A stretch of 64,000 nucleotides of DNA from Ruminococcus sp. (GTDB lineage Bacteria; Bacillota; Clostridia; Oscillospirales; Ruminococcaceae): the NCBI RefSeq assembly GCF_017464355.1, contig NZ_JAFUAG010000003.1, forward strand, positions 98,692 to 162,691. Reading direction: 5' to 3'. Under the pieces are notes generated by a model. It saw only the letters and a program-made list of their open reading frames with translations, had not been told where the DNA came from and did no database searches. Positions 4,060 to 54,575 of this stretch are shown piece by piece (position 1 is the first letter of the stretch; every line of letters starts with the position of its first letter). The position numbers and the translations under genes are program-made.

Positions 4060-4114
4060 GCCATGATATGCTTGTCACGGCATAGCAAACTTCTGACAAT
4101 GAGGAAACTGATAC

Positions 4115-5437: not shown

Positions 5438-5445
5438 GGTGACTT

Positions 5446-5850: not shown

Positions 5851-5863
5851 CGGAGGATAATTT

Positions 5864-6550: not shown

Positions 6551-6569
6551 CAAAGAGAGGAAGATAACG

Positions 6570-7316: not shown

Positions 7317-7375
7317 AAAATAACGTCAAACAGAGGGAAACGGGGGATAGCCCCTGTCAGGAAAAGGAGCAGAAT

Positions 7376-9078: not shown

Positions 9079-9149
9079 CCCGAAATTATCAGCCATGACA
9101 ACGGCTCTGCACGCCCGTTTTTAAAACACCAAAAAGAGGAGACCCGAAA

Positions 9150-10821: not shown

Positions 10822-10826
10822 ATGCT

Positions 10827-11189
10827 ATGATGCTTGATATTGACCATTCCGACAAAATGCACCATTATTTTTCGCTGATGTGCAGGAGCGAGAGAGCTTT
10901 TCTTGACGGGCTGAGATATTTCTCCCTGGGCACTGGCCTGCAGCAGGGCGAGATAATGACAGAGTTCCCCGACAGCCCCGACAGAGAGGAGCATTTCAGG
11001 GAGCTTTACCCCGACTGCGTGGGCTTTTACAATGACTATGACCCGCCCCCGCATTTTGTTCCCATCGGGGGATTTCTGGCATACCTTGATGAGGTGTGCC
11101 GCAGATATACCGAAGATAAGGAAGAAGAATATAAGGAAAAAGTATGTGCATACCTTAAGGCCATTTCCGATAGGTACGGACATACATAG
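10827..11189 (+). CDS. Hypothetical acidic protein
   Basis: A 120-residue soluble protein beginning MMLDIDHSDKMHHYFSLMCR. It is rich in Asp, Glu, Tyr and His, without signal peptide or membrane segment. No known domain recognised. It starts five bases after the preceding membrane-protein gene and ends 45 bases before smc, so it belongs to the same transcription unit. The longer frame beginning at 10,746 is rejected because it would read through the previous gene. Confidence 0.6.
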   Translation: MMLDIDHSDKMHHYFSLMCRSERAFLDGLRYFSLGTGLQQGEIMTEFPDSPDREEHFRELYPDCVGFYNDYDPPPHFVPIGGFLAYLDEVCRRYTEDKEEEYKEKVCAYLKAISDRYGHT

Positions 11190-11234
11190 TGTACCGTTGC
11201 AGGTATACAACAACAGCTGGAAGGCGGTGAAGAA

Positions 11235-40833: not shown

Positions 40834-40862
40834 TTGACATTTACTTACAGATGTGCTATAAT
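40834..40862 (+). promoter_or_regulatory. Promoter of metA
   Basis: TTGACA at 40,834-40,839 and TATAAT at 40,857-40,862 with a 17-base spacer, both perfect consensus. Confidence 0.9.
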
Positions 40863-40866
40863 ACAA

Positions 40867-40886
40867 ATATCATATTATTTTGATAT
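40867..40886. promoter_or_regulatory. Palindrome at the metA transcription start
   Basis: ATATCA-N8-TGATAT begins four bases after the -10 box, where a repressor could block initiation. Distinct from the LacI-type sites of the sulfur operons. Regulator unknown. Confidence 0.4.
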
Positions 40887-40923
40887 GAATACAATGAATT
40901 TTGAGAAACGGAGGAAAGTAATT

Positions 40924-41826
40924 ATGCCATTAAGATTAAAAGAGACACTTCCCGTCATCGAGAAGCTGAAAAAGGAAAACATTTTTGCCATGACAGAAGA
41001 ACGGGCAAAGCACCAGGATATCCGTGAACTGAAAATAGCCGTGCTGAACCTCATGCCCGACAAGGAGAACACCGAGCAGCAGCTGCTCAGGCTGCTTTCA
41101 AACTCTCCTCTGCAGATAGAGGTCACTTTCATAAGGCTGGTGACTCACCGCTACAAAAACACCTCCATGACCTACCTGATGAAGAACTACCAGCCCTTCT
41201 ACCAGATAGAGCATAAGTATTTCGACGGCCTTATCATCACAGGGGCGCCCGTTGAAAAGCTGGAATATGAAGATGTGGACTACTGGGGCGAATATACCTC
41301 CATACTTGAATGGTCAAGGATACACGTTACCTCGGTGCTGCACCTGTGCTGGGCTGCCCAGGCGGGGCTGTATTATCATTACGGGGTGCCCAAGTTCAAC
41401 TATGAGAAGAAGCTTTCGGGCATATACGAGCATACTGTCACCGATACCACCCACGAGCTGCTGCGGGGCTTCGATAAGAATTTCTATGCGCCCCATTCAC
41501 GCTACACGGGCATAAGCGCCGATGAGATAGCAAAGGTCCCCGAGCTTACTGTGCTGGCAGAGTCTGACATAACAGGCCCCTATATCATCACCGACGGCGG
41601 CAGCAATATCTTCGTGAACGGCCACCCCGAGTACGATCTCTACCGCCTGGCGGAGGAATATATCCGTGATACGGACAAGGGGCTGTCACCGGATATCCCC
41701 GCCAACTATTTCCCCGATGACGACCCCGACAAGGAACCCGTCAGCCGCTGGCTGTCAGCCTCGAGCCTGCTGTTCTCCAACTGGCTGAACTACTTCGTGT
41801 ATCAGATAACGCCCTATCAGTTTTGA
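40924..41826 (+). CDS. metA: Homoserine O-acetyltransferase (MetA family)
   Basis: Acylates homoserine as the first step of methionine synthesis. The 300-residue protein has the catalytic Cys142 in SVLHLCWAAQAG and His235/Glu237 in NGHPEYDLYRL. Position 111 is glutamate in ITGAPVEKLEYEDVDYW. In characterised MetA enzymes Glu111 goes with acetyl-CoA and Gly111 with succinyl-CoA, so O-acetylhomoserine is the predicted product, which is the substrate of the MetY-type enzyme encoded 12 kb away. The family is commonly annotated as succinyltransferase. Start ATG follows GAGGAAAG. Single-gene unit with its own promoter and terminator. Confidence 0.95.
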   Translation: MPLRLKETLPVIEKLKKENIFAMTEERAKHQDIRELKIAVLNLMPDKENTEQQLLRLLSNSPLQIEVTFIRLVTHRYKNTSMTYLMKNYQPFYQIEHKYFDGLIITGAPVEKLEYEDVDYWGEYTSILEWSRIHVTSVLHLCWAAQAGLYYHYGVPKFNYEKKLSGIYEHTVTDTTHELLRGFDKNFYAPHSRYTGISADEIAKVPELTVLAESDITGPYIITDGGSNIFVNGHPEYDLYRLAEEYIRDTDKGLSPDIPANYFPDDDPDKEPVSRWLSASSLLFSNWLNYFVYQITPYQF

Positions 41827-41929: not shown

Positions 41930-43483
41930 ATGAGTGATACTGCAAAGAAAACAGGCTATGCCAAGCATATAATAAAATGCTACAAAAAAGAGCTGAAATA
42001 CGGCATTTCAAAAAAGCTGATGTACAAGCTGACTTATTTGGACGACAGGACAAAGTATTACACAGACTCTCTCATGAAATACTGTGGCTTTCCCTATCTG
42101 TATTCAGCGCTGTTCCATGACCCTGATGAAGAAGATATAAAATACATAAGAAATATCGCCTATGATATCATGAGTTTTCATCACAGTGACCCTTTCTATG
42201 CGGAGATACTGATGAAGAAAGCCAATTACGAAAGCGGTTTTCCCGACTTTGATGAATGGGACAAGCTTGACCCAAAGGACTACTACGGCGGCGACCGTCC
42301 GCTGCTGGCAGCAGGCTCGGCTCACCCGAACGGATATGTCCGTGAACAGTGCCTGCGGCGGTGTATCAAGCACGACAATATGCTTGGTTTCATCATATAC
42401 CGCCTGAACGACCATGTACCTGAGGTGCGCAAAGCGACACGGGAGGTGCTGGAAGAATATCTCAGAAGACCCGACACGGAATGGGCGCTTATCAAGTCTG
42501 CACCGACCTATCTGGAATGTGTCAGGCGGAGAAAACGTGTATCGGGGGACGAGTCCTTCAGAACAGAGAAGCTGGACAGTCTGATACGCAAAGTTATCAC
42601 TGAAAATATCACAAAGCTGCCCACAACTGTATGCTGCAAGGCCTTTGAGATATATCCCGAGCTCCTTGATCGTGATAGGCTGGCTAAGGTATTTCACAGA
42701 GAAAGAAACGGCGAGCAGAGGGTAATGCTGGAACGGACATATATGCACTCCTCCCCTGAGCCCATACCCCGCGAGGTTCTGGATATGTTTATGGAGGACG
42801 AATACGAGGGCGTGCGCAGGGTCGCTTATGCATACCGCTTTGAGCATGAGGGCATATGGGAAGGCTTTGAAAAACTGCTTTGCTCAAAGTCCCGCAGGAT
42901 AAGGAAGTTTGCCGAACAGAAGCTTTCAGCAAGGGACTTTGATATAGCTGCCTACTGCCGTGAACACCTGCCTGATACAATGCTTGCCCTCTCCGATACG
43001 GGAACAAAGGAGGATATCCCCCTTATACGACCCTATCTCGATACCCACCCCTGTGAAGCCCTGACCGCCCTTGTCCGCCTTAAAGCCGAGGACACGGCTA
43101 AGCTTATATACGACCATATGCACAGCGAGGACAAAGCCGCCGCAAAGACAGCCTACTGCATTGCCAGAGATGTCGGGTGCTTTGACAGAGATATACTGCT
43201 CAGCATGATAAACAGCGAAACAGACACGGTGATACAGTGGCATGAGATATGTCTGCTGACAAGGGAGGGCGTATGGCAGGTAATGCCCCACCTTATACGT
43301 TTTGCAAGAAAGTATCCCAAACAGAACATAGATATCATTTATCTTATCAAAAAAAATCTTGGCAATAAAGTCAGGCTGCCTGCCCGGCTCAATAATGAGA
43401 TACAGCAGGCGCTCAGAGAAAACTGCGGCAAGGGCATACCTGTTGAGGTAAACAACCGCATATTCTTTGCTATCAGCGGATAA
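41930..43483 (+). CDS. Helical-repeat protein of unknown function
   Basis: A 517-residue cytoplasmic protein made of consecutive helix pairs resembling HEAT repeats, for example GYVREQCLRRCIKH, PEVRKATREVLEEYLRR, EGVRRVAYAYRFEHEGIW and SRRIRKFAEQKLSARD. Such repeats usually form protein- or nucleic-acid-binding scaffolds. No catalytic motif is seen. Own promoter, RBS AAAGGAGA and a bidirectional terminator make it monocistronic. It is convergent with the nitrogenase-like operon, and a shared function is not implied. Confidence 0.75.
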   Translation: MSDTAKKTGYAKHIIKCYKKELKYGISKKLMYKLTYLDDRTKYYTDSLMKYCGFPYLYSALFHDPDEEDIKYIRNIAYDIMSFHHSDPFYAEILMKKANYESGFPDFDEWDKLDPKDYYGGDRPLLAAGSAHPNGYVREQCLRRCIKHDNMLGFIIYRLNDHVPEVRKATREVLEEYLRRPDTEWALIKSAPTYLECVRRRKRVSGDESFRTEKLDSLIRKVITENITKLPTTVCCKAFEIYPELLDRDRLAKVFHRERNGEQRVMLERTYMHSSPEPIPREVLDMFMEDEYEGVRRVAYAYRFEHEGIWEGFEKLLCSKSRRIRKFAEQKLSARDFDIAAYCREHLPDTMLALSDTGTKEDIPLIRPYLDTHPCEALTALVRLKAEDTAKLIYDHMHSEDKAAAKTAYCIARDVGCFDRDILLSMINSETDTVIQWHEICLLTREGVWQVMPHLIRFARKYPKQNIDIIYLIKKNLGNKVRLPARLNNEIQQALRENCGKGIPVEVNNRIFFAISG

Positions 43484-43529
43484 AAAATGAGCTTCCGAAA
43501 ACTCAGTGTTTTCGGAAGCTTTGATTTTA
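43484..43529. terminator. Bidirectional terminator
   Basis: Perfect 13-bp stem AGCTTCCGAAAAC / GTTTTCGGAAGCT with loop TCAGT. T-rich tails flank it on both strands (TTGATTTT on plus, six T on minus), ending the helical-repeat gene and the nif-like operon. Confidence 0.92.
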
Positions 43530-43859
43530 GACTATCCTGTCCGCTATGAACTTTTTAAGCACCCCGTCGATGCTGCCGCTGACCTCGAAGACACGCACGC
43601 CCCTTTCGATGAGGTATGCTGCTGCGCCCTCGCCTATCTTCTGCACCAGCAGCGCATCGCAGTCAGAGAGCAGCTCTATTATCTTGTCGAAACGGGTGGT
43701 GTCATGTCCCAGCCTTTGCTGACAGACAGCCACTGCGTCCCGCACCTCGGTGAAAACATAGTCCTCTTCGCCAAGCTCGTATACACGGAAGAATTTTGCG
43801 TGCCCGAAATGCTCGTTCACTGTAAAGCCGTCGCCTGTGGCCACTGCAACTTTTGCCAT
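43527..43859 (-). CDS. NifX/NafY-family cofactor-binding protein
   Basis: A 110-residue member of the dinitrogenase iron-molybdenum cofactor family, which carries FeS cofactor precursors such as NifB-co. It begins AKVAVATGDGFTVNEHFGHAKFFRVYE, with the His-containing segment typical of the family, and ends with EVSGSIDGVLKKF. Start at 43,859 is nine bases from AAAGGA; two upstream ATGs are too close to it. Last gene after the NifK-like gene, 19 bases away. Confidence 0.88.
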   Translation of the reverse strand: MAKVAVATGDGFTVNEHFGHAKFFRVYELGEEDYVFTEVRDAVAVCQQRLGHDTTRFDKIIELLSDCDALLVQKIGEGAAAYLIERGVRVFEVSGSIDGVLKKFIADRIV

Positions 43860-43878
43860 TGTCATCATTCCTTTGCGC

Positions 43879-45219
43879 TTACTTGTAGGAAGCCAGTGCG
43901 GTGTTGTAGATATCCTCTATAACTCTGAGGCCTCCTGTGTAGCCCACATAATTTGTGGTCAGCACTATGCGGTAGGGTGTGGGGCAGGCAATGGAAAGGA
44001 AATCTGCGTCTATCTCGCCTGCCAGCTCCTTGTCCCAGCCGCTGCCGAGAATGAGCCCCCTGCCCTTGTGGTCAAGTCCGCGGATAACGTCCTGCATTGC
44101 GCCTGCATCGGGGTCAAAGTACACGGGTATCTCCCGCTTGTCTGAAGCCGACTTTATATCCGCCTCGATCTTATCCTGATACTTTTTGGGAACATTGTCC
44201 ACGATGAACTGCTCCTTGGGGACAAGGCCTGTTTCGTGGAGCAGGAACTTTGTCAGCCCCGTAACATAGCCCGAATCGTGCAGTATGTGTACATAGCTCG
44301 GCAGGCCGTAGCGGAATTCCAGCAGGAATGTGGCCAGGTTGTCAAGCTCCTCATAGTAAGCCTTTTCCTCTTCCTCGATGAAAGCCCTTGCCTTTTTCTC
44401 GTCAATGCCCGCACCCTGTTCAAGGGCGAAGTCCAGCACACCGTTTAAAAACTTTGTGGTCTCGTTGGCGCCTATGGGCATATAGCCGAACTGATAGTAG
44501 GGCTGGCCGTAGCGCCTTTCAAGGTTCTTCACGATGGGCTCGCCGTACCAGGGCGAGATGAACACATTGAAATTCGCCTTTGGTATGGTCTGCCACTCCT
44601 TAACGCCGCCCGAGTGGGGTCCGAAAAGGATATTGACCTTTAGCCCCAGCCCCTCCAGCAGGCGCTTGTATTCTTTCAGGTTGCCCTTCCAGAACTGATC
44701 CTGGTAGGGTATGGAAGCTATGACATTCACCAGGTTTTTCTCGCTGCGGGAGGGATTATCCTCCTCAAAGCGGCTGACATACTGGTCGATTATGGCATTT
44801 ACCACCGCCGAATGGGAAACATAGTTGTTGGACTTGAAGCCCGAAGTCTCCACATGGACGATAGGCCTGTCCTCCTCCCAGAGGAACTCATCTGTTACGC
44901 TGGCCACATCATCGCCCACTATGCCTGCGGTACAGCCTGTTACTACCACCTGCAGGTCGGTGTCCAGCACCTTGTAGGTGTTCTTTATCAGTGTCCTCAG
45001 CCTGTCAGTTCCGCCGAAGACGACCTCTTTCTCGCTGAAATTGGTGCAGGGTGCAGTTTCGCCTCCTGCATAGCCTGCCGAACGCTCAAAAAATCCCTTT
45101 ATCATAACACCGCAGCCCGGGCCCGAATGAAGTATGGGCACCGCCCTGGGTATAGCAACTACTGTCTGCAGCGCACCGATGGCGCAGGTGTAGCGCTCCT
45201 GTTCAATTAGTCCTGCCAT
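43879..45219 (-). CDS. Nitrogenase-like component 1, beta (NifK-like) subunit
   Basis: A 446-residue component 1 subunit. Three P-cluster cysteines align with NifK Cys70, Cys95 and Cys153: Cys12 in RYTCAIGALQTV, Cys36 in LHSGPGCGVMI and Cys96 in VTGCTAGIVGDDV. It lacks the roughly 50-residue N-terminal extension of many NifK proteins. It lies 11 bases downstream of the NifD-like gene, and the two should form an alpha2beta2 protein receiving electrons from the NifH encoded nearby. Context with met and cys genes suggests the marK branch rather than true nifK; that is inference. Confidence 0.88.
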   Translation of the reverse strand: MAGLIEQERYTCAIGALQTVVAIPRAVPILHSGPGCGVMIKGFFERSAGYAGGETAPCTNFSEKEVVFGGTDRLRTLIKNTYKVLDTDLQVVVTGCTAGIVGDDVASVTDEFLWEEDRPIVHVETSGFKSNNYVSHSAVVNAIIDQYVSRFEEDNPSRSEKNLVNVIASIPYQDQFWKGNLKEYKRLLEGLGLKVNILFGPHSGGVKEWQTIPKANFNVFISPWYGEPIVKNLERRYGQPYYQFGYMPIGANETTKFLNGVLDFALEQGAGIDEKKARAFIEEEEKAYYEELDNLATFLLEFRYGLPSYVHILHDSGYVTGLTKFLLHETGLVPKEQFIVDNVPKKYQDKIEADIKSASDKREIPVYFDPDAGAMQDVIRGLDHKGRGLILGSGWDKELAGEIDADFLSIACPTPYRIVLTTNYVGYTGGLRVIEDIYNTALASYK

Positions 45220-45230
45220 TTATATCCACC

Positions 45231-46700
45231 TTACTTTCCAAGAAATGTGTAGGGCTCCTGTTCAAGCCACCACTTGGTATACGGATTTACCGAATGCTTC
45301 TCCAGATTTTTCACGAACTCATCGTTCTCTATAGTTTCAAGTATCCTCTCACCGTAAGCCACAAGACCCTCGTAGCCCATGCCGAAATGCTCATCACCTA
45401 TGAGCAGTGAGGGTATGCCCAGCTTTGCGCCCCACAGGGTCATGCCGCCGTGACGGGCAAGCAGTATATCGGGATGTATCCTGTTCAGCACATTGACCAG
45501 CTCAAACTCCTGCTTGTTGCAGACATTGTAGTTGGGTACATCGCCATAGTCCTCCACCGTATGCTTAAGCGTATCGGCTCTCTCGTCCTCGTTGTCATAC
45601 TGGGGGTCATGGTGGAAGATAGCTGCGCCCTGGGGGTCCATGCCAAGCTCCTTGAGCAGTGCCAGCAGCGAATGTCCGTGGGAAGCGCCTGCTGTCACAT
45701 AGGCGGTCTTGCCTTTCAGCTTTTCACGCAGCGCCTCTATCTTTGGCATATACTCCTTTTTCTTTCTCGCCAGAAGTTCCTCCACTTCCTTTTCCTTGCC
45801 GAGTATCTGCCCCAGCTCCCTGAACCAACGGTCGGTCTGGGCAATGCCGTAAGGGGGAGAATTGCGTATCTCAGGCACCCCGAAGCCCTGCTCCAGCGCA
45901 GCGCCCAGGTAGCTGCCCAGCGTTGAGCAGGCCTGTATGGTCAGCACCGCCTCGCTGGAATAGCTGAGGCTGTCCACCGTAGCAAAGGGGGTTATGTAAT
46001 TGGGCTCATAGCCCAGCTCACCGAACCATTCCCTGAAAATATCGCTGCCCCAGAAGTTTATGACATTGATGATATTCCTCTTCTGCCTTGCAGGCTTGAT
46101 GATCTTCCTTGCAATGCCGTGATAGCCCGCATCAAATCCCGATGTCCACATCTTCGACCTGAATCCCTCACAGAACACAGCCACAACAGGTATGCCCAGC
46201 TCCCTTTCCGCCGCATTGGTAACGCTTTCCACATCATCACCGATGATACCTGCGGCGCAGGTGGTTATTACGAAGATAGCCTTTGGCTTAGCCCTTTTGT
46301 GGACCTCACGTATAGCGGCCTCCAGCTTTTTTGAACCGCCGTAAATGGTATCCTTTTCCTCCAGGTTGGTGGAAAATATCTTCCTCTGTGTGGGGTGTTC
46401 CAGCTGTCTGAGGTAAGCATTCACCCTGTAGGTGAAAGCAAATTCATGCAGACAAGTTGAACAGCCCACAGGTCCGTGGGAGATTATGGCCGCGTCCTGT
46501 ATCAGTGTCAGTGTGCAGGCCGCATTAGATGTACCGCACCCCAGACACTGGCTGAATGACCTGCTCTTGTCCTTTATCTTCCCGCCGCACCCCGAACAGG
46601 CGCTGACAAGTTCCTTAGCTGTTCCTTGAAATCCTGTTATCGAATTAAGACGTATCTCACGAATTTCGACCTCAGGTATATTAAGATTTACTTTACTCAT
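45231..46700 (-). CDS. Nitrogenase-like component 1, alpha (NifD-like) subunit
   Basis: A 489-residue catalytic subunit. P-cluster ligands correspond to Cys55 (QCLGCGTSNAACT), Cys80 (ISHGPVGCSTC) and Cys148 (ITTCAAGIIGDDV). Cofactor ligands also appear present: Cys258 in TIQACSTLGSYLGAALEQ (NifD Cys275) and His438 in LIGDEHFGMGYEGL (NifD His442). The NifD segment with Gln191 and His195 (SQSLGHH) is replaced by FRSKMWTSGFDAGYHG, which argues against a standard dinitrogen site. Extra cysteines Cys35, Cys38 and Cys52 precede Cys55, a possible added metal site. Predicted substrate class: methyl-thio compounds, by analogy with MarD. Confidence 0.88.
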   Translation of the reverse strand: MSKVNLNIPEVEIREIRLNSITGFQGTAKELVSACSGCGGKIKDKSRSFSQCLGCGTSNAACTLTLIQDAAIISHGPVGCSTCLHEFAFTYRVNAYLRQLEHPTQRKIFSTNLEEKDTIYGGSKKLEAAIREVHKRAKPKAIFVITTCAAGIIGDDVESVTNAAERELGIPVVAVFCEGFRSKMWTSGFDAGYHGIARKIIKPARQKRNIINVINFWGSDIFREWFGELGYEPNYITPFATVDSLSYSSEAVLTIQACSTLGSYLGAALEQGFGVPEIRNSPPYGIAQTDRWFRELGQILGKEKEVEELLARKKKEYMPKIEALREKLKGKTAYVTAGASHGHSLLALLKELGMDPQGAAIFHHDPQYDNEDERADTLKHTVEDYGDVPNYNVCNKQEFELVNVLNRIHPDILLARHGGMTLWGAKLGIPSLLIGDEHFGMGYEGLVAYGERILETIENDEFVKNLEKHSVNPYTKWWLEQEPYTFLGK

Positions 46701-47167
46701 ATTTTAACTCCTATCTTAAATGGGGGTGGGCCCCCCATGCCCCCACGCGACAACGTCGGCGTGTGCGAGCCTTTTTAGCCTATTACAGCTTTGGCTTTGC
46801 GTTCACTCCAAGCCAAAAGGCGCAAAAGTTCTCGCTGGTTGCTATGCTTATATAACCTTGTTTGGGACATCTGTTATTCTGACAAAACTCTCGGCTTTAG
46901 CAAACCTTCTGTAGGGCGGGGGCTTGCCCCCGCCGCTGTTTGTATGCCATGCTTATAAAACTTTGTTTTGGCTCTTGCCGTTCTTGCAAAGCTTTGTTTT
47001 TATCAGACTGCGGGGGTCATACCGACGCTGTCGTATGCGCCCCCGCCCTACTGTTTTTGCTGTTCTTGCGAAGCCTGTTCTCCGCAAATATGGCGCCTTG
47101 CCATTCCGGGAACAACAAAGCCCTCGCCCCTGTCAACAATTATGAATTATGCATTGTGAATTATGAA
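46701..47167. repeat. Repeat-rich spacer between nifH-like and nifD-like genes
   Basis: No coding frame is convincing in this 467-base gap. It contains hairpins GCGGGGGC-TT-GCCCCCGC (46,916) and a GCGGGGG...CCCCCGC stem with an inner ATAC/GTAT arm (47,010-47,046). Diverged direct repeats of the type ATGCTTATAAnnnTTGTTT occur near 46,848 and 46,949, and TTCTTGCAAAGC / TTCTTGCGAAGC near 46,981 and 47,061. There is a double AATTATGAATTA at 47,128-47,160. It looks like decayed insertion material that split a once tighter operon. A weak LacI-type core (GACAACGTCGGC) lies at 46,749-46,760. Confidence 0.6.
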
Positions 47168-48031
<864 letters not shown>

Positions 48032-48065
48032 TTACCTCGTTTCATGATATCGTTTTTTTATCTTG

Positions 48066-48083
48066 AATACCATATATGGTATT
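48066..48083. promoter_or_regulatory. nifH upstream palindrome 1
   Basis: AATACCA-TATA-TGGTATT, a perfect 18-bp palindrome about 40 bases before the NifH-like start. Confidence 0.7.
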
Positions 48084-48116
48084 TTTATAAGTTTCAACTA
48101 TACTTCTTCATCAATA

Positions 48117-48140
48117 TACTGTATTCCATATAACAGTATC
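48117..48140. promoter_or_regulatory. nifH upstream palindrome, diverged copy
   Basis: ATACTG-N12-CAGTAT with an inner CCATATAA, a weaker relative of the sites on either side. Confidence 0.4.
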
Positions 48141-48143
48141 AGC

Positions 48144-48167
48144 TTAAATACCACATATGGTATTTAA
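48144..48167. promoter_or_regulatory. nifH upstream palindrome 2
   Basis: TTAAATACCA-CATA-TGGTATTTAA: perfect 10-bp arms, same core and same four-base spacer as palindrome 1. Centre-to-centre distance is 81 bases. Confidence 0.7.
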
Positions 48168-48188
48168 TATATATCGGAATATATCCTC

Positions 48189-48207
48189 AATATCAACATA
48201 TGGTATT
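48189..48207. promoter_or_regulatory. nifH upstream half-palindrome
   Basis: AATATCAACATA-TGGTATT: one intact TGGTATT arm and a degenerate opposite arm, touching the end of the NifB-like gene. Confidence 0.4.
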
Positions 48208-49088
48208 CACCCGTGAGAAAATGTATCTTTTCTCGATAATCTCTGCAGGTTCTGATATACCCTGTCCCCGAAGTCCTCGCCCCCGGGTATGCCTACCGCG
48301 TCAGCCCTGCACCGCTGGCAGTGCCTGAAAACATCAATGTACTTTGAAGCTTTCAGTATCGCCCGTTCAAGCTCCATGCAATCGGGCTCTCGGCAGTCTT
48401 TAAGCTTGTGCTGGGGTATCAGGGGGATAATGTTGTATATGCTCGCCCCTGCCTCTGCTACTGTACGGGCTATGTCCTCAATGTGTTCACCGTTTATCTC
48501 GGGAACAAGCACCGTGTTCACCTTGACGGTTATCCCCGCCTCGCTTATGAGCCTTATGCCCTCCAGCTGCTGTTCAATGAGTATCTTCGCCGCCGTAACG
48601 CCCGTGTAGTGCTTGCCGTGCCAGACTATGCCGTCATTCAGCTGAGCCTCTATCTCGGGGTCAACGGCATTGACCGTCACCGTCAGCGAGTCTACGCCCA
48701 CCTCGATGACCTCCTGCGCCTTTTCCGCCAGCAGCAGGCCGTTGGTGCTCATGCACTTTACCAGTTCGGGATACTTTTCCTTCACCAGCCTGAAAGTCTC
48801 CAGCGCATAACCGCTTGCCAGGGTGTCCCCGGGGCCTGCAATGCCCGCAACGTGTATGTCGGGACAGTATTTAAGTGCCTCCCCGATAGCCTCAATGGCT
48901 TCCTCGGGGGTTATCACCGTTGAAGCCACCCCCGGGCGCTTCTCGTAGGTGTTGAATTTTCTCTCGCAGAACCTGCACTCAATGTTGCAGCTGGGGCTTG
49001 TGGGCAGATGTATCCGTCCGCTGCCGTTTTTATCACCTCTGGCAAAGCAGGGGTGCTTTGTGGTCAGCTCTTCGTATGATATTGCCAT
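48207..49088 (-). CDS. NifB-like radical SAM cofactor synthase
   Basis: The 293-residue protein has the NifB signature KHPCFARG then GRIHLPTSPSCNIECRFC, in which Cys34, Cys38 and Cys41 bind the SAM cluster, followed by GPGDTLASG. The distal cysteines of NifB core proteins are present (KDCREPDC, RHCQRCRADAVG). NifB fuses two 4Fe-4S clusters with carbide into NifB-co. The C-terminal NifX domain of many NifB proteins is absent, but a separate NifX-family gene overlaps its 5' end. Start at 49,088 follows GGGAGGTGG. Its presence implies the component 1 proteins hold a NifB-derived cofactor. Confidence 0.9.
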   Translation of the reverse strand: MAISYEELTTKHPCFARGDKNGSGRIHLPTSPSCNIECRFCERKFNTYEKRPGVASTVITPEEAIEAIGEALKYCPDIHVAGIAGPGDTLASGYALETFRLVKEKYPELVKCMSTNGLLLAEKAQEVIEVGVDSLTVTVNAVDPEIEAQLNDGIVWHGKHYTGVTAAKILIEQQLEGIRLISEAGITVKVNTVLVPEINGEHIEDIARTVAEAGASIYNIIPLIPQHKLKDCREPDCMELERAILKASKYIDVFRHCQRCRADAVGIPGGEDFGDRVYQNLQRLSRKDTFSHG

Positions 49089-49435
49089 TCGTCCACCTCC
49101 CATTGCTTTTCTTCCATAAGCAGACAGACCGCCTGCTCTATATCAAGGGGTATCTCATATGCCGCTATGCCCTTTTCCTTTATGTACTTTTTCGCCCCGG
49201 GGCCTATCCTCTGCGCCACTATGGCAGATACCTCCCCAAGCTGCGAAAGCATAGCTTCAAACCCGCTTACCTCGTGTTCTCCGCCCTTGCAGGCAGGCCT
49301 TGCGGACACATTTTCTGTTATGTCACAGTCCTCCTTTTCGGTGTCAAGCTCTGCGATGTAAAATCGCTCCGCCGCCCCGAAGTGGCTGTCCACCCGCACG
49401 CCGTCCGTGCTTGCAAAGGCTATCCTGTATATCAT
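49064..49435 (-). CDS. NifX-family protein upstream of the NifB-like gene
   Basis: A 123-residue member of the dinitrogenase cofactor family: IAFASTDGVRVDSHFGAAERFYIAE resembles the other NifX-like protein here and the C-terminal domain of fused NifB proteins. An inserted Cys/Gly/Glu segment (ARPACKGGEHEVSGFE) replaces the shorter loop of its paralogue. It overlaps the NifB-like start by 25 bases, so translation is coupled. It probably receives the product of NifB. It lies 10 bases downstream of the cysteine synthase-like gene, tying cofactor synthesis to sulfur metabolism in one operon. Confidence 0.85.
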   Translation of the reverse strand: MIYRIAFASTDGVRVDSHFGAAERFYIAELDTEKEDCDITENVSARPACKGGEHEVSGFEAMLSQLGEVSAIVAQRIGPGAKKYIKEKGIAAYEIPLDIEQAVCLLMEEKQWEVDEWQYHTKS

Positions 49436-49445
49436 CTCATCACCG

Positions 49446-50351
49446 CTATCCGAATAATCCTGTGCTGAAATATCTGTCGCCCCTGTCAGGGAAAACTACC
49501 ACGATATTCCCGCTTTCGATCTCCTGTGCCAGTTTAAGCGCCGCCGCCATGGCCGCCCCTGAGGAAGAGCCTGCGATAATGCCCTCCCGCCTTGCCAGTT
49601 CCTTTACTGTGCGGAAGGCTTCCTCATCGTTGACCTTGATGACTTTGTCCACCAGCGTTATGTCCATGGTATCGGGGATAAAATCGTTGCCGATACCCTC
49701 AATGTTGTAATCAAAATGTTCTCCGCCGCCTATGGTCGAGCCCTCCGGGTCCGCAAGAATGCCCTGCGTGTCTCCGTGTTCTTTCAGGTAACGGACTATT
49801 CCCGTATAAGTTCCGCCGCTGCCTGCACCTGCCACCAGGTAGTCCACCCTGCCCTCCAGGTCATCGTATATCTCCTTGCCTGTGGTCTCATAATGTGCAA
49901 GGGGGTTCTGGGGATTTTTGAACTGCTCCAGCGATATGGAGTCGGGTATCTCCTTTTTCAGCTCCTCAGCCTTTCTCACCGCCCCCAGCATACCCTCAGC
50001 GCGGGGGGTGTTTATGACCTCAGCACCCAGCGCCCGCATGAGCGCCTGCTTTTCTGCGGAAAACTTTGTGGGAACTGTGAAGATCACCCTGTAGCCTCTG
50101 CCGAGTGCTGCGAATGCAATACCCAGTCCCGTATTTCCTGCGGTGGCCTCTATGATAGTGCCGCCCTTTTTAAGTCTGCCCTCTTTCTCAGCTGCCTTGA
50201 CCATATACTCACCAATGCGGTCTTTGACGCTGCCCGAGGGGTTGTACATTTCCAGCTTCGCATAAATATTTACCTTGGGGGAGACCCCCATATTCGTAAG
50301 CCTCACCAGCGGGGTGCGGCCTATCAGCTCCCGCATACTGTTGTATAACAT
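49446..50351 (-). CDS. Cysteine synthase / cystathionine beta-synthase-like enzyme (CysK/MccA)
   Basis: PLP enzyme of fold type II, 301 residues. The cofactor lysine is in NPSGSVKDRIGEYM; IEATAGNTGLGIA and GAGSGGTYTGI bind the substrate carboxylate and PLP phosphate. Members make cysteine from O-acetylserine and sulfide, or cystathionine from O-acetylserine and homocysteine (MccA). EATAGNTG and the GIGNDFIP segment lean towards MccA, and the partner upstream is MccB/MetB-like, the classical mccA-mccB pair. Activity cannot be fixed from sequence alone. It begins one base after the partner's stop codon. Confidence 0.88.
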   Translation of the reverse strand: MLYNSMRELIGRTPLVRLTNMGVSPKVNIYAKLEMYNPSGSVKDRIGEYMVKAAEKEGRLKKGGTIIEATAGNTGLGIAFAALGRGYRVIFTVPTKFSAEKQALMRALGAEVINTPRAEGMLGAVRKAEELKKEIPDSISLEQFKNPQNPLAHYETTGKEIYDDLEGRVDYLVAGAGSGGTYTGIVRYLKEHGDTQGILADPEGSTIGGGEHFDYNIEGIGNDFIPDTMDITLVDKVIKVNDEEAFRTVKELARREGIIAGSSSGAAMAAALKLAQEIESGNIVVVFPDRGDRYFSTGLFG

Positions 50352-50352
50352 C

Positions 50353-51510
50353 TTATCTTACCTCACTTTTCCTGATAGCCTGTTCCAGGTCTGCCAGTAT
50401 GTCATCAATGTTCTCAATGCCGATCGAAAGCCTTATGAGCCCGTCTGTTATGCCCACCTTTCTGCGTATATCCCCAGGGATAGAAGCGTGGGTCATGCTT
50501 GAGGGGTGGCATACCAGCGACTCCACACCTCCAAGGCTCTCCGCCAGTGTTATAAGCTCCAGGCTCTCAAAGAACACCCTGATATCGTAGCCGTCCTTAA
50601 GCTCAAAGCTTATCATCACACCGCCGTTCTTCGCCTGCTTTTTGTTGACCTCATATCCCTTGTCCGTGGGAAGTCCGGGGTAGTGTACGCTCTTTACCGC
50701 CTCGTGCTTTGTAAGATATTCAGCCGCTGCCAGCGCATTCTCGACGTGCCTGTCAAGCCGCACGCCCAGGGTCTTTATGCCCCGTATCAGCAGGAAACTG
50801 TCAAAGGGCGCCAGCACACCGCCTGTGGAATTCTGTATGAATGCCAGCTTATCAGCCAGCTCTCTGGTTTTTACCACTGCCAGACCTGCCACCACATCGC
50901 TGTGTCCGCCAAGATATTTTGTGGCGCTGTGTACCACGATGTCTGCCCCGAGTTCAAGGGGACGCTGTATATAAGGTGTCATGAAGGTGTTGTCAACTAT
51001 TACCAGCAGACCATGTCTGTGGGCTATGTCAGCCACCGCCCTTATATCGGTTATGGTCATCAGAGGATTTGCAGGGCTCTCTATCAGCACCGCCTTTACG
51101 TCTTCGGTGATATCCTTCTCAAAGGCCTCAGGGTCTTCGGTGTCGGATATGGTGTAGTTTATGCCGAAGTGGTCAAAGACCTGATTTAACAGCCTGAAAG
51201 TCCCGCCGTAAACATTTGAGGATATCAGCACCCTGTCCCCCTTGTGCAGAAGACTCAGCACTGCCGTTTCAGCTGCCAGGCCGCTGGCAAAGGCAAAGCC
51301 TGCCTCGCCGCCCTCCAGCTCAGCTATGAGAGCCTCCAGCGCCTCACGGGTGGGGTTGCCTGTGCGGGAATATTCATACCCCCTCATCTTTCCCAGGCCG
51401 TCCTGCTTAAAGGTGGAGGTCTGGTAGATAGGCACGTTCACCGCTCCTGTGCGCTCGTCTATGGATATGCCCCCGTGTATCAGGGCTGTGTCTATGTTCT
51501 TGAAGCTCAT
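50353..51510 (-). CDS. Cystathionine gamma-synthase/gamma-lyase-like PLP enzyme (MccB/MetI type)
   Basis: Cys/Met metabolism PLP enzyme of 385 residues. The cofactor lysine is in VHSATKYLGGHSDVVAG; SRTGNPTREALE and ASGLAAETAV are family motifs, and the C-terminus has LGGVESLVCHPSSMTHASIP. These fit either cystathionine gamma-lyase (cysteine from cystathionine) or gamma-synthase. With the MccA-like neighbour the lyase direction is favoured, but O-acetylhomoserine could also be used. Start at 51,510 is nine bases from AAAGGA. First gene of an operon that continues into nifX-like and nifB-like genes; three LacI-type sites lie upstream. Confidence 0.88.
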   Translation of the reverse strand: MSFKNIDTALIHGGISIDERTGAVNVPIYQTSTFKQDGLGKMRGYEYSRTGNPTREALEALIAELEGGEAGFAFASGLAAETAVLSLLHKGDRVLISSNVYGGTFRLLNQVFDHFGINYTISDTEDPEAFEKDITEDVKAVLIESPANPLMTITDIRAVADIAHRHGLLVIVDNTFMTPYIQRPLELGADIVVHSATKYLGGHSDVVAGLAVVKTRELADKLAFIQNSTGGVLAPFDSFLLIRGIKTLGVRLDRHVENALAAAEYLTKHEAVKSVHYPGLPTDKGYEVNKKQAKNGGVMISFELKDGYDIRVFFESLELITLAESLGGVESLVCHPSSMTHASIPGDIRRKVGITDGLIRLSIGIENIDDILADLEQAIRKSEVR

Positions 51511-51556
51511 CTTATTCATTCCTTTCATATATTTCCTATTTGTTTGGTATGCATTT

Positions 51557-51585
51557 ATGATACACCATAAACCCGCATACGTCAA
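51557..51585 (-). promoter_or_regulatory. Promoter of the MccB-like/cysK/nifX/nifB operon
   Basis: On the minus strand TTGACG (51,580-51,585) and TATCAT (51,557-51,562), 17-base spacer. A LacI-type site starts 12 bases upstream of the -35 box. Confidence 0.75.
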
Positions 51586-51596
51586 TGAGAATGTGC

Positions 51597-51610
51597 GATA
51601 ACGTTGTCAC
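51597..51610. promoter_or_regulatory. LacI-type operator A
   Basis: GATAACGTTGTCAC, near-palindromic around a central CG as in LacI/GalR operators; centre near -52 of the MccB-like promoter. Confidence 0.65.
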
Positions 51611-51711
51611 GCTTCCCGCCAAAGGGTCGCCGACAGCCCTCCCACAGGCAGAAATTTAAGTTTGATATGGTAAATTCTTTTGAACAATATATTTCCGACC
51701 CCTTTTTGAAT

Positions 51712-51725
51712 GATAACGTTGTCAC
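51712..51725. promoter_or_regulatory. LacI-type operator B
   Basis: GATAACGTTGTCAC, identical to site A over 14 bases; 115 bases further upstream. Confidence 0.65.
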
Positions 51726-51798
51726 CGTATTTCTCCGCATTTATGCCCTTTGCAGATATTATCGCCCGCCCGCAAGCCGATAATATCCCGCTTGCCGA

Positions 51799-51812
51799 GA
51801 TAACGTTGTCAC
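51799..51812. promoter_or_regulatory. LacI-type operator C
   Basis: GATAACGTTGTCAC, third identical copy, 87 bases beyond site B and just before the end of the LacI-type gene. Confidence 0.65.
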
Positions 51813-51856
51813 GAAGCGCAAAAAAATCTGCCGACACAGCTGTATCGGCAGAGATA

Positions 51857-52930
51857 TCATATATAATATTCGGGTTCGTTCAGTTCTCCCGCAGGACGGC
51901 AGCTTTCCCGTATGACCAGCGTGCCTTCGACCTCTACCCTGGAAATTATCCTGTGTCCTCCCTTGATACGGTCAAGGAGCAGCATAAGTGCAAAGCGCAC
52001 CATTTCCTTTTTGGGCAGTGATATAGTCGTCAGCATAGGTCTGGTGTACTGGGCGGTCTCGATATCGTCGCTGGCTATCACCGAGGGCATATACCCCCTT
52101 GACCTGCGCCTGCCCAGCGCCCCCAGCAGACCCACTGCCAGTATATCGTTGGCACAGTATATGCCCGTGGGCGGGTCGTCCAGCGAAGCGAAATACTCCA
52201 TGGCAGCAATGCCCCCCTCCTCGTTGGGCAGGGTATCGAAGATGTGGTCGATGTCGGGGGTCAGGTGACTGTTCATCAGGGCAGTCTGGTAGCCTGTAAA
52301 TCTCGCCTCGTTGTGGCATGGACCCACATAGCCTATCTTCGTGTGACCCAGCTTTGTCAGGTAGCTTACAGCGGTGCGGGCTATCCTGCCGCCGTCACAC
52401 AGCACCTCGTCCGCTTCGCAGCCGGAAGAATTGCGGTTTATGGATACCAGGTTCTTCTCCTTGGCCTTCAGCAGCTTCAGCGCCCTCACTGTCACCCTGC
52501 CTATGACGATCAGCCCGTCAGAACGGGGCGCACCCTCAGGGAAAAGCTCCTCCGCCAGCTTTGGCAGCCTGTCCGTCCTGCTGAGCTTTTCATCTGAGAA
52601 CTCTGAGTTTTGCCACACGTTCCCCACTATGCAGCCGCTGCTGCGCAGTTCCTTTTCAAGCAGCATGAGCAGTTCATCGTAAAAGGGGTCGGTCATCTCG
52701 TGGGCAGCCCTTGTCAGCAGTATATCTATGCGGTATATCTTCTCCTCATTTTTTACACCTGTCTTGAGAGCTCTGGCGCTGGCATTGGGGATATAGCTTA
52801 TCTCTCTGGCCGCCTCTATGACCTTCCGCCTGACCTCCTCGCTGGCGCACTTGTGGTTGGGGTCGCTGAGTATCCTGCCCACGGTGGATACCGACACCCC
52901 TGTCATTTGTGCTATTTTTTTCAGTGACAT
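51857..52930 (-). CDS. LacI-family transcriptional regulator
   Basis: A 357-residue regulator. The N-terminal helix-turn-helix is SLKKIAQMTGVSVSTVGRIL followed by the hinge helix region IPNASARALKTG. The periplasmic-binding-like effector domain includes SDGLIVIGRVT, GHTKIGYVGP and PTGIYCANDILAVGLLGALG. It sits between two sulfur operons, each preceded by three matching palindromes, so it is the probable regulator of both. The effector is unknown; LacI-family proteins usually sense sugars or nucleotides, so a role in sulfur metabolism would be unusual. Start at 52,930 follows GAGGTGA. Confidence 0.88.
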   Translation of the reverse strand: MSLKKIAQMTGVSVSTVGRILSDPNHKCASEEVRRKVIEAAREISYIPNASARALKTGVKNEEKIYRIDILLTRAAHEMTDPFYDELLMLLEKELRSSGCIVGNVWQNSEFSDEKLSRTDRLPKLAEELFPEGAPRSDGLIVIGRVTVRALKLLKAKEKNLVSINRNSSGCEADEVLCDGGRIARTAVSYLTKLGHTKIGYVGPCHNEARFTGYQTALMNSHLTPDIDHIFDTLPNEEGGIAAMEYFASLDDPPTGIYCANDILAVGLLGALGRRRSRGYMPSVIASDDIETAQYTRPMLTTISLPKKEMVRFALMLLLDRIKGGHRIISRVEVEGTLVIRESCRPAGELNEPEYYI

Positions 52931-52962
52931 ACAGTTCACCTCACAATTAATCATAGTAAACA

Positions 52963-52977
52963 TATACTTTTAGTATG
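52963..52977. promoter_or_regulatory. Palindrome at the LacI-type gene start site
   Basis: ATACT-TTT-AGTAT immediately downstream of the -10 box of the regulator gene. Different in sequence from operators A-F. Confidence 0.35.
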
Positions 52978-53006
52978 ATTATAACGCAAAATGTTCTGTT
53001 TGTCAA
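52978..53006 (-). promoter_or_regulatory. Promoter of the LacI-type regulator
   Basis: On the minus strand TTGACA (53,001-53,006) and TATAAT (52,978-52,983), 17-base spacer; perfect boxes. Confidence 0.85.
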
Positions 53007-53027
53007 GCGCGAATGTGTAAATTTTTG

Positions 53028-54317
53028 TCAGATGATACCTGCCGCCTTGAAAGCCTGCTCCAGGTCGGTAATGAGGTCGTCGGCATCTTCAAGGCCTGCC
53101 GAAATGCGTATGAGGTTTGAGGGTATATCAGCCAGCTTTAGCTCTTCTTCGGTAAGCTCGCTGTGGGTGGTGTTGGGTGAGTCCACTATCAGCGACCTCG
53201 CATCGCCCAGGTTAACATGGTAGTGGAACAGCTTTATGTTGTTCAGGAAAGCCGCTTCCTGCTCAGCAGTGCCCTTTATGCCGAAGCTCAGCACTCCGCC
53301 GCCGCCGTTGGGCAGGTGCTTGTCAGCCAGTTCACGGTATTTGTAGCTTGCAAGGCTGGGGTGGCGCACCCATTCCACAGCAGGGGAGCTTTCAAGGTAA
53401 GCCGCTATCTTCGCCGCATTGGCAGACTGCTTTGCCACTCTCTCCGAAAGAGTTTCCAGCCCGATGATACCCAGGTAAGCGTCCTGGGGCGAAAGCGCCG
53501 CACCCAGCAGGTTCAGGTACACCAGTGTCGCACGGAAGATAAAGAAGTTGTCAGGGAAGATATCAGCAGGGGACTTGCCTTTGAGCATAACTATAGGCTC
53601 ATAGAACTGGGGGTAGCGTTCCTTGGTGTAAAGGCTCATGTCGCCGTTGTCAAGTATAAGTCCCGCTATGATATTGCCGTGGCCTGTCAGCGACTTTGTG
53701 GCTGAGTACACAACAATGTCCGCGCCATGCTCAAAGGGTCTGTAGAGGTAGGGTGTGGCCAGGGTGTTGTCAACTACCACGGGTACCCCGTGCCTGTGGG
53801 CGACTTCGGATATAGCATCTATGTCAGCAAGGTAAGCGTTTGGGTTGCTTACAGACTCCACATACACAGCCTTTACATCGTCGGTCAGCTCGGCCTCCAG
53901 CCTTTCGGGGTCAAGGACGGCATCGGTTATCTTAATGGTAACTCCCAGCTCGGGGAAGAGCCTGTCAAAGGCGTCTATAGTTCCTCCGTAAACATAGGGC
54001 GAAGCCAGTATGGTGCCGCCTTTCGAGGCCAGGTTCAGCAGGGTATAGGTTATGGCCGCCATGCCCGAACCTACAGCCAGAGCATTCTTTGCGCCGTCCA
54101 GCGCCTTTACCCTCTCGGCAAAATAGGTGACGGTGGGGTTGCCCACACGGGTGTAAAGGTAGCCTGCCTCCTTGTAGGTGAACAGGTTCTGAGCGTGCTC
54201 GGTATCTCTGAAATCGTATGAAGCTGTCTGATAGATCGGGGGAGATACTGCCTGCCTGTTGTCCTTAGGCTCGTAGCCCGCCCTTATCTTTCTGGTGTCA
54301 AATCTCAGTTCTGCCAT
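53028..54317 (-). CDS. metY: O-acetylhomoserine sulfhydrylase (MetY)
   Basis: PLP enzyme of 429 residues that joins O-acetylhomoserine with sulfide to make homocysteine, or with methanethiol to make methionine directly. It begins LRFDTRKIRAGYEPKDNRQA and has LYTRVGNPTVTYFAERV, SGMAAITYTLLNLA and the cofactor lysine in VYSATKSLTGHGNIIAGL. The insertion after the lysine (LDNGDMSLYTKERYPQF) and the C-terminal ARSLIVDSPNTTHSELTEEE are typical of OAH sulfhydrylases rather than cystathionine enzymes. Three LacI-type sites lie upstream. It would use the MetA product and could capture a thiol released by the nitrogenase-like enzyme. Confidence 0.93.
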   Translation of the reverse strand: MAELRFDTRKIRAGYEPKDNRQAVSPPIYQTASYDFRDTEHAQNLFTYKEAGYLYTRVGNPTVTYFAERVKALDGAKNALAVGSGMAAITYTLLNLASKGGTILASPYVYGGTIDAFDRLFPELGVTIKITDAVLDPERLEAELTDDVKAVYVESVSNPNAYLADIDAISEVAHRHGVPVVVDNTLATPYLYRPFEHGADIVVYSATKSLTGHGNIIAGLILDNGDMSLYTKERYPQFYEPIVMLKGKSPADIFPDNFFIFRATLVYLNLLGAALSPQDAYLGIIGLETLSERVAKQSANAAKIAAYLESSPAVEWVRHPSLASYKYRELADKHLPNGGGGVLSFGIKGTAEQEAAFLNNIKLFHYHVNLGDARSLIVDSPNTTHSELTEEELKLADIPSNLIRISAGLEDADDLITDLEQAFKAAGII

Positions 54318-54350
54318 TATCATCATTTCCTTTCGGTTTAAGTTGACTAC

Positions 54351-54379: not shown

Positions 54380-54390
54380 TAAAAATCGGT

Positions 54391-54402
54391 GACAACGTTC
54401 GC
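54391..54402. promoter_or_regulatory. LacI-type operator D
   Basis: GACAACGTTCGC, flanked by GT and AC; one arm diverged. Centre near -52 of the metY promoter. Confidence 0.55.
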
Positions 54403-54495
54403 ACCCTCCCCCGAAAGAACTGCCCGCCCTGTGCCAAAACTTCCCCGAAAGCCCCGCAGAAAAGGGCGTTCAGCAGGGCATACCTCCCCTTATAC

Positions 54496-54507
54496 GACAA
54501 CGTTATC
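54496..54507. promoter_or_regulatory. LacI-type operator E
   Basis: GACAACGTTATC, exact reverse complement of the A/B/C core, 105 bases beyond operator D. Confidence 0.65.
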
Positions 54508-54575
54508 ACTGCCTTTCTGCGCCATTATGGGGCTATCCGCCCCGGATATATGCACCTTTCCCCGACGGGATATAA

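Follow-up and report, generated by a model that had tools for sequence, protein, structure and literature searches.

A group IV-A nitrogenase-like gene cluster of Ruminococcus with a probable role in organosulfur cleavage

A stretch of 64,000 nucleotides from a Ruminococcus sp. (G000:C39:98692-162691, hereafter the window) carries ten open reading frames (ORFs) from 43527 to 54326, all of them minus-strand, in the order metY, LacI, mccB, cysK, nifX-a, nifB, nifH, D, K, nifX-b. The D and K subunits form a group IV-A (Nfa) nitrogenase-like reductase, whose main job is probably the reductive cleavage of a carbon–sulfur (C-S) bond in an imported organosulfur compound, with the thiol being passed to methionine and cysteine synthesis. 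The host genome has a size of 3.48 Mb and is 91% complete. Judged by sequence, the closest named relatives of the host are Ruminococcus albus; its D protein is 96% identical to that of R. albus 8 and 94% to that of R. albus AR67, and D at 94% identity or more occurs in eight of 297 genomes of the host's family, the host included.

Results

Similarity of D and K to methylthio-alkane reductase

The solved proteins closest to D and K are MarD and MarK of the methylthio-alkane reductase (Mar) of Rhodospirillum rubrum, with identities of 41 and 44%, respectively. D scored 440 bits against solved MarD, while the best nitrogenase chain reached 135 bits; K scored 389 bits against solved MarK and 66 bits against the best NifK. 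An AlphaFold2 model of D (18 sequences) had a mean predicted local distance difference test score (pLDDT) of 80.5 and a predicted template modeling score of 0.82. Its top structural match was Mar (9fmg_A) with template modeling (TM) scores of 0.87/0.91; a second Mar structure gave 0.71/0.90-0.91, and the listed nitrogenases gave 0.61-0.67 by query length. Residues 179-185, the Trp included, had a pLDDT below 50, and the model informs on the overall fold only.

The ligands of the Mar metalloclusters are named in the paper on the Mar structure, where Arg428 and His429 are suggested as a possible hallmark against nitrogenases (PMC12552129). We mapped these residues onto D and K through the numbering of the solved chain. 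D keeps Cys55, Cys80, Cys148, and Cys258 (C66, C91, C158, and C270 of MarD), Arg416-His417 (R428-H429 of MarD), Trp185, Phe189, and His364; K keeps Cys12, Cys36, and Cys96. The conservation extends to the clade: 59 of 59 non-redundant IV-A D proteins keep C66, C73, C91, C158, W195, F199, C270, H375, R428, and H429 (Mar numbers), and the three Cys of K are kept in 58 of 58 IV-A K proteins. The places of the nitrogenase residues Gln191 and His195 are taken by Trp and Phe in all 59 D proteins, that of the window included. The His aligned with MarD His429 sits on the Mar-type loop, the His442 column of NifD not having been scored by itself. Two residues of MarD are changed in the window D, His194 to Met and Gln74 to Thr. 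At position 74, the 59 D proteins have Met (25), Thr (21), Gln (8), Ala (4), or Val (1); position 194 is taken up in the Discussion.

D and K form a clade beside Mar

The maximum-likelihood tree of D comprised 75 proteins and placed the window D in a 38-row clade (support 100/97) whose sister was a 10-row clade with R. rubrum MarD (100/97), both joined at 100/98 and both separate from NifD and NifE. In the K tree (71 rows), the 35 IV-A rows and the nine Mar rows were each set off by a 100/100 branch; 27 further rows were assigned to neither group and not counted. The trees left out 27 of 101 D rows (three of a distant type found on host contig C24 and 24 others, 21 of them IV-A, for tree size) and 29 of 99 K rows, and contained no sequence known to be of isethionate reductase (Isr) type. 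Plain membership in Mar, our first working idea, was dropped since both trees put DK in a separate clade. The original prediction of a Mar-related enzyme thus holds insofar as DK is closest to MarD and MarK and not to the N2-fixing NifDK; the phylogeny that it called for set D apart from NifD and NifE, but as a sister of Mar and not inside it.

Group IV-A, or Nfa, is described as including DK of Endomicrobium proavitum and NflDK1 of Heliophilum fasciatum (PMC9147875, PMC11423573), and both share the clade of the window DK. E. proavitum D is 71% identical to the window D, 39% to MarD, and 26% to Rhizobium NifD, and its K is 65% identical to the window K. The genes stand in the order metY, SsuA-like binding protein, ATP-binding cassette (ABC) ATPase, D, K, a short MetQ-like remnant, NifX, MccB (63%), CysK (62%), NifB, NifX, and NifH, and no permease gene was called in this stretch. 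E. proavitum D has Trp and Phe at the Gln191/His195 places as well as the Mar-type Arg-His. The enzyme of this bacterium therefore has nearly the same parts list and identical key residues as the Ruminococcus system. H. fasciatum D is 63% identical to the window D; the pair on contig 7 with nifH beside it, which we took as NflDK1, adjoins MetY and CysK-family genes.

Three loci (L032, L055, and L092) hold IV-A and Mar-type DK in one cluster, along with MccB, CysK, and MetY genes. The Mar-type D of L092 is truncated where the contig stops; its IV-A D, present at 61% identity, was missed by the gene caller. The presence of both types suggests that two enzymes may feed one pathway from different substrates.

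Other nitrogenase-like sets were seen along the way. L105-L108 and L131 (14282-15748) hold another D-like clade, about 39-41% identical to the window D, which keeps the Arg-His hallmark and has Gly at the position of Cys73. The NifH of L105-L108 is 78-79% identical to the window NifH, and a CysK-family gene lies between H and D in L105-L107. Plasmid-borne DK, two sets per stretch with ABC transporter genes, were found in Treponema saccharophilum (pTS2) and Candidatus Chlorohelix allophototropha; the latter plasmid carries a IV-A pair with an O-acetylhomoserine (OAH) sulfhydrylase gene nearby.

Sulfur genes around group IV-A loci

The list of relatives comprised the best 80 of at least 579, and the sample is therefore biased toward near kin. 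As anchors we used 59 called D proteins at least 55% identical to that of the window, thinned at 92% identity; the 41 with at least 9 kb of total flank were counted and 18 were left out. Genes were called by a simple script, which missed a full-length D in five of the 80 loci (L052, L054, L085, L092, and L093), and labeled by the best BLAST match to the window genes; "MetY," "CysK," and "MccB" denote family-level matches.

Within 9 kb on each side, the 41 IV-A loci held MetY in 24 cases, MccB in 19, and CysK in 19, with any of the three in 31. MetQ/MetI-like genes were present at 25 loci and SsuA-like genes at 20, and 37 had some sulfur enzyme or transporter, which upholds the methionine/cysteine setting of the original prediction. 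The MetQ/NlpA lipoproteins were well above the Pfam cut-off (a family-level label). NifB was found at 28 loci and NifH at 26. A PII gene was found at none of the 41 IV-A loci; among the seven NifD controls that had 9 kb or more of flank, PII was present in three, which were the source of the PII queries, and MetY and CysK in none. Pfam confirmed six of the seven PII queries as P-II; the seventh, a ferredoxin-like protein of 109 amino acids, had no match in IV-A loci. Sulfur-gene neighborhoods recurred in contigs of all five phyla represented among the 80 best matches. The host genome has five PF01053 genes at E<1e-100, two of them at this locus. With five such genes in 3.48 Mb, the chance of one lying within 18 kb is estimated at a few percent, and the association is thus not due to chance.

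A version joined to an MccA/MccB-type pair and a LacI regulator had been taken as possibly undescribed. The sulfur association as such was noted by Dos Santos et al. in 2012, who found Cys275-bearing nitrogenase-like proteins commonly associated with OAH sulfhydrylase or cysteine synthase (PMC3464626), and a 2026 paper describes a termite spirochete whose group-IV nifDK operon includes cysteine synthase (PMC13067680). Nor is the MccA/MccB-type pair particular to this host, as MccB and CysK each occur at 19 of the 41 loci; the LacI gene was seen in Ruminococcus-type loci only.

A predicted LacI regulon

The LacI-family regulator (51857..52963, minus strand) has PF00356 and PF13377 domains. Matches to its gene (59-87%) stood beside 16 Ruminococcus-type clusters, all from Ruminococcus or near it; the sole other LacI label among the loci was a 26% match in a nif control locus. 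By scanning the upstream stretches of the window and of 17 related loci we derived the palindrome GTGAYAACGTTRTCAC, of which three copies lie upstream of mccB and two upstream of metY. The predicted operators of mccB (51797..51812, 51710..51725, and 51595..51610) have one mismatch each. Those of metY have two mismatches each, the first (54389..54404) being 63 bp from the ORF start and the second (54494..54509) 105 bp from the first. The link to LacI drawn earlier is thus borne out, at the level of predicted sites. The window holds six sites at up to three mismatches (the sixth at 61674) versus 0.36 expected.

The rest of the genome, which was not used in the derivation, provides an independent test. 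At up to two mismatches, 13 palindrome sites were found in the whole genome compared to one for the reversed pattern. Seven of them lie in three promoter regions, three inside called genes, and one before another LacI gene; for the sites L197 and L198, BLAST of the surroundings, made against known parts only, gave no match. A site pair on contig C22 has the same 105-bp spacing and the same 63 bp to the ORF start as that of metY. Behind it lie an SsuA-like binding protein, a permease, and an ATPase (SsuABC-like), the binding protein being 64% identical to that of the Clostridium sporosphaeroides IV-A cluster and 48% to that of E. proavitum. The orthologous transporter is preceded by a site in R. 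albus 8, R. albus AR67, and two further genomes (G158 and G192), and in G113 it lies behind metY, which itself lies behind a site pair. Altogether, five of eight IV-A relatives have a site-led transporter; the stretches covered of G035 and G279 held none, and that of G065 was not covered. A site with at most one mismatch occurs in all eight. G226, a genome of the same genus that lacks a IV-A-like D (best match 23%), has four sites, all with two mismatches. The LacI-family protein probably acts as a repressor of metY, of the mccB-cysK-nifXB unit, and of the distant SsuABC-like transporter, and would do so by binding to the predicted operators.

Two further sites were observed. On contig C31 of the host, a one-mismatch palindrome precedes another LacI-family gene (about 7977-9127 of L165; family assigned by eye) by about 140 bp, and in G113 a one-mismatch palindrome precedes a second CysK-family gene (about 4463-5653 of L196), 47% identical to that of the window, by about 280 bp.

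Layout of the locus

The ORFs and profile searches agree with the original description of NifH-, NifD-, NifK-, and NifB-like and two NifX-like genes beside CysK/MccA- and MccB-like enzymes and metY, with metA nearby. The metY gene (53028..54326, minus strand) encodes an OAH sulfhydrylase family protein (PF01053; TIGR01326 460.7 bits, below the cut-off of 495.1). The mccB-like cystathionine gamma-lyase/synthase (50353..51585, minus; PF01053) had bifunctional cystathionine gamma-lyase/homocysteine desulfhydrase as its top NCBIfam match (546 bits, below the cut-off of 594), and its closest solved structures are 4l0o and 7d7o; its real start, judged from locus L015, is probably near 51510. In profile searches, cysK (49446..50351, minus) encodes a CysK/MccA-like pyridoxal phosphate enzyme, either cysteine synthase or cystathionine beta-synthase, and its closest solved structures were a mixture of MccA and CysK types. 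The NifX-like cluster-binding proteins a (49064..49435, minus) and b (43527..43868, minus) both match PF02579 (Nitro_FeMo-Co/NifX-like).

The NifB/MarB-like radical SAM protein (48207..49103, minus) scored 268 bits with TIGR01290, below the cut-off of 343.65; the nifB profile covers residues 12-278, and the NifX tail is absent. It contains all six NifB motifs searched, HPC, CxxxCxxC, ExRPG, AGPG, TxTxN, and CxxCRxDAxG. The NifH-like reductase (47168..48025, minus) was above the cut-off of TIGR01287 (462 versus 394 bits) and has Cys99, Cys134, and the P-loop. D (45231..46700, minus) and K (43879..45219, minus) match PF00148, and their assignment as catalytic IV-A subunits rests on structure match, tree, and residues. 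An inverted repeat lies at the cluster's end (43481..43529) and may be a terminator.

The gaps between genes are 64 bp from metY to LacI, 271 bp from LacI to mccB, 1 bp from mccB to cysK, and 10 bp from cysK to nifX-a, which overlaps nifB by 40 bp; 181 bp lie between nifB and nifH, 467 bp between nifH and D, 11 bp between D and K, and 10 bp between K and nifX-b. The tight spacing within mccB-cysK-nifX-nifB and D-K-nifX, and the wide gaps before nifH and D, probably indicate more than one transcription unit. The spacer from nifH to D (46701-47167) contains short AT-rich repeated motifs, and its equivalent in R. albus 8 is only 263 bp long. An Rfam scan for riboswitches and T-boxes gave no match in the window or in eight related loci (143,214 bases), and such control was dropped.

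PF00148 had six matches in the host genome, the DK pair of the cluster and four divergent genes on contig C24. No NifEN scaffold pair was among these six in the 91% complete genome, in line with the lack of nifE and nifN first noted at the locus; NifV, NifU, and NifS were not searched for. The C24 genes (G000:C24:8000-27500, about 2919-14105) comprise two NifH-like and four divergent PF00148 genes beside hypE, hypD, and hypF. R. albus 8 has a similar set with adjoining genes of fitting size. Five genomes (host, R. albus 8, AR67, C. sporosphaeroides, and Acetobacterium tundrae) were searched for the large subunit of NiFe hydrogenase (PF00374), and none had a match. A hyp link of nitrogenase-like genes in Firmicutes was already noted in 2012 (PMC3464626).

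Sulfur metabolism of the host

Sulfite reductase (PF01077) had no match in the host, R. albus 8, R. albus AR67, C. sporosphaeroides, or E. proavitum; it was present in four of the nine IV-A hosts searched (H. fasciatum, E. oxidoreducens, A. tundrae, and Pectinatus) and in 11 of 14 control genomes. The host therefore probably cannot draw on sulfate or sulfite through this enzyme and depends on finding reduced sulfur. MtnA (PF01008) had no match in the host, E. proavitum, R. albus 8, AR67, C. sporosphaeroides, or Pectinatus and was present in three of the nine (H. fasciatum, E. oxidoreducens, and A. tundrae). An own supply of 2-methylthioethanol by the methylthioadenosine/dihydroxyacetone phosphate shunt was rejected, as the host genome lacks a PF01008 match.

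The metA gene (40834..41826, plus strand) encodes a homoserine O-acyltransferase that scored 432 bits with NF047918 (acetyl type, cut-off 460.5) and 416 bits with TIGR01001 (succinyl type, cut-off 495). MetA is thus closest to the acetyl type, its top NCBIfam match though below cut-off, which fits MetY, whose substrate it would supply.

Discussion

From the relation to Mar and the gene context we infer, by analogy, a C-S cleaving chemistry for the Ruminococcus system. The NifB-type protein would build an [Fe8S9C]-type cluster, which the NifX proteins may carry, and the NifH-type reductase would deliver electrons to DK with ATP. DK, in which the ligands of a P-cluster and of an [Fe8S9C]-type cluster are kept, would cleave the C-S bond of a compound that the SsuABC-like transporter imports. 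The thiol set free (methanethiol or sulfide) would be combined by MetY with O-acetylhomoserine from MetA and might also pass to the CysK/MccB pair, through which homocysteine would be converted to cysteine, methionine and cysteine being the end products. The release of methane, ethane, or ethylene that was proposed earlier would depend on the substrate.

A number of observations weigh against this proposal. Position 194 is Val in 27, Ile in 26, and Met in six of the 59 IV-A D proteins, while it is His in eight of ten members of the Mar group, the two exceptions forming its deepest branch; as His194 is replaced in all 59, chemistry or substrate may differ from those of Mar. As this locus and its kin served to derive the palindrome, its enrichment here is no independent test. 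With PF01077 in four and PF01008 in three of nine IV-A hosts, the lack of either is not general. Four of the 41 loci (L038, L060, L080, and L081) had no recognized sulfur gene, one of the seven NifD controls (L133) gave a weak MccB-like match (29%), and the SsuA-type proteins, although above the Pfam NMT1 cut-off, fell below that of NCBIfam. Finally, 15N2 incorporation is reported for E. proavitum, and H. fasciatum is reported to reduce acetylene without canonical nifDK (PMC9147875). E. proavitum is described as having no nif-like genes other than this DK pair (PMC9147875, PMC11423573), and in its genome we likewise found two PF00148 matches only, the IV-A pair.

The scaffold, ligands, and context that DK has in common with MarDK would also suit a true methylthio-alkane reductase for dimethyl sulfide or 2-methylthioethanol. 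We regard this as rather unlikely, because IV-A and Mar separate in both trees, His194 is lost and Gln74 mostly changed, and the three loci with both DK types suggest different substrates. Moreover, the host has no MtnA-type gene for the synthesis of 2-methylthioethanol, and the predicted regulon includes a transporter, which small neutral thioethers should not need.

The literature describes the E. proavitum pair as a functional nitrogenase of group IV (PMC11257099, PMC8399215), and group IV-A might be a primitive N2-fixing nitrogenase with an Fe-only cofactor, as claimed for E. proavitum and predicted for H. fasciatum, the sulfur genes supplying cluster sulfur or being incidental. The 15N2 and acetylene reports, both without NifEN (PMC9147875, PMC11257099), speak for it, as does the slight N2 reduction ascribed to L-cluster NifEN (quoted in PMC12552129). 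On the other hand, Trp and Phe stand at the Gln191/His195 places throughout the clade, and the Arg-His loop is of the Mar type, Mar itself having given no 15NH3 above background (PMC12552129). PII is missing from the 41 IV-A loci and present in three of the seven controls, the three that supplied the queries, and metY, mccB, and cysK belong to sulfur metabolism, not to cluster assembly. In addition, five of 12 IV-A hosts have other PF00148 genes at 330 bits or more, which were checked as NifD/NifK-like in four (G298, G303, G304, and G306) and judged by score only in G305. Residues and context led us to reject a pure nitrogenase; given the 15N2 report we retain it as an alternative, though an unlikely one. 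Both C-S cleavage and the reports could be true if the cluster also slowly reduced N2.

An Isr-like reductase releasing sulfite from isethionate or another sulfonate would account for the SsuABC/TauABC-like transporter in the predicted regulon and the SsuA-like genes at 20 of 41 loci, but is very improbable, since IsrD has one of the three P-cluster Cys and no Cys275 equivalent (PMC11423573) while IV-A retains all, the radical SAM partner of Isr is BciD-like and not NifB-like (PMC11423573), and the host has no PF01077 match for the use of sulfite.

Returning to C-S cleavage, we hold it evenly balanced whether the whole of group IV-A, the E. proavitum enzyme included, consists of C-S reductases that differ from Mar and Isr and act on organosulfur compounds taken up by the cell, probably charged ones. 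The diazotrophy of E. proavitum would then be a side activity of the [Fe8S9C] cluster or have another cause. Given that many hosts come from guts or other anoxic habitats, one may speculate about a thioether-sulfonate or an S-methyl amino acid as substrate.

Mar and Isr are already known, and the conflict over group IV-A looks like the new part. In the open-license literature we found no paper placing the E. proavitum or IV-A "nitrogenase" in a methionine/cysteine locus with Mar-type residues, and none on this LacI regulon. So far, IV-A genes have been regarded as encoding the nitrogenase in a termite-gut bacterium and in a phototroph, and as possibly breaking the six-gene rule for N2 fixation. 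Should they encode C-S reductases that scavenge sulfur, surveys in which nifH or nifD genes of this kind count as N2 fixation overcount fixers, and the minimal nif gene set need not be relaxed on account of E. proavitum. Cellulose-degrading rumen bacteria would then have a further nitrogenase-cofactor enzyme with its own substrate, which could serve the synthesis of methionine and cysteine and might also give off small gases. An IV-A enzyme that instead performed both N2 fixation and C-S cleavage would directly link sulfur reductases to nitrogenases. Since the Ruminococcus system shares its clade with the termite-gut enzyme reported as N2-fixing, it makes a C-S role of the whole clade testable.

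Comparison with known systems

Like MarBHDK of R. rubrum (group IV-C), which splits methylthio-alkanes into methanethiol and a hydrocarbon, the Ruminococcus system has all cluster ligands, the Arg428-His429 loop, Trp195, Phe199, His375, and a NifB-type partner, and it would share the route from methanethiol to methionine, a step performed in R. rubrum by OAH sulfhydrylase. It differs in its separate clade, in His194 (Met here; Val, Ile, or Met in the clade) and Gln74 (Thr here), and in having an MccB-CysK pair, two NifX, a LacI gene, and an SsuABC-like transporter in the predicted regulon. With NfaHDK of E. proavitum and NflDK1 of H. fasciatum it shares clade, ligands, hallmark residues, and MetY and CysK-family neighbors, and with the former also MccB, NifB, two NifX, and an SsuA-like gene; these systems, however, are described as nitrogenases, have another gene order, and showed no LacI gene in the stretches covered. 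IsrBHDK of Rhodobacter capsulatus is likewise nitrogenase-like, serves sulfur assimilation, and is proposed to cleave a C-S bond, but lacks two of the three P-cluster Cys of D and the cofactor Cys, uses another radical SAM protein, and yields sulfite. The Mo-, V-, and Fe-nitrogenases, finally, have the overall fold, the P-cluster Cys, and the Cys275 equivalent of the cofactor in common with the Ruminococcus system, which in contrast to them has no NifEN, no Gln191/His195, and no adjoining PII genes, and carries the cofactor His on a different loop.

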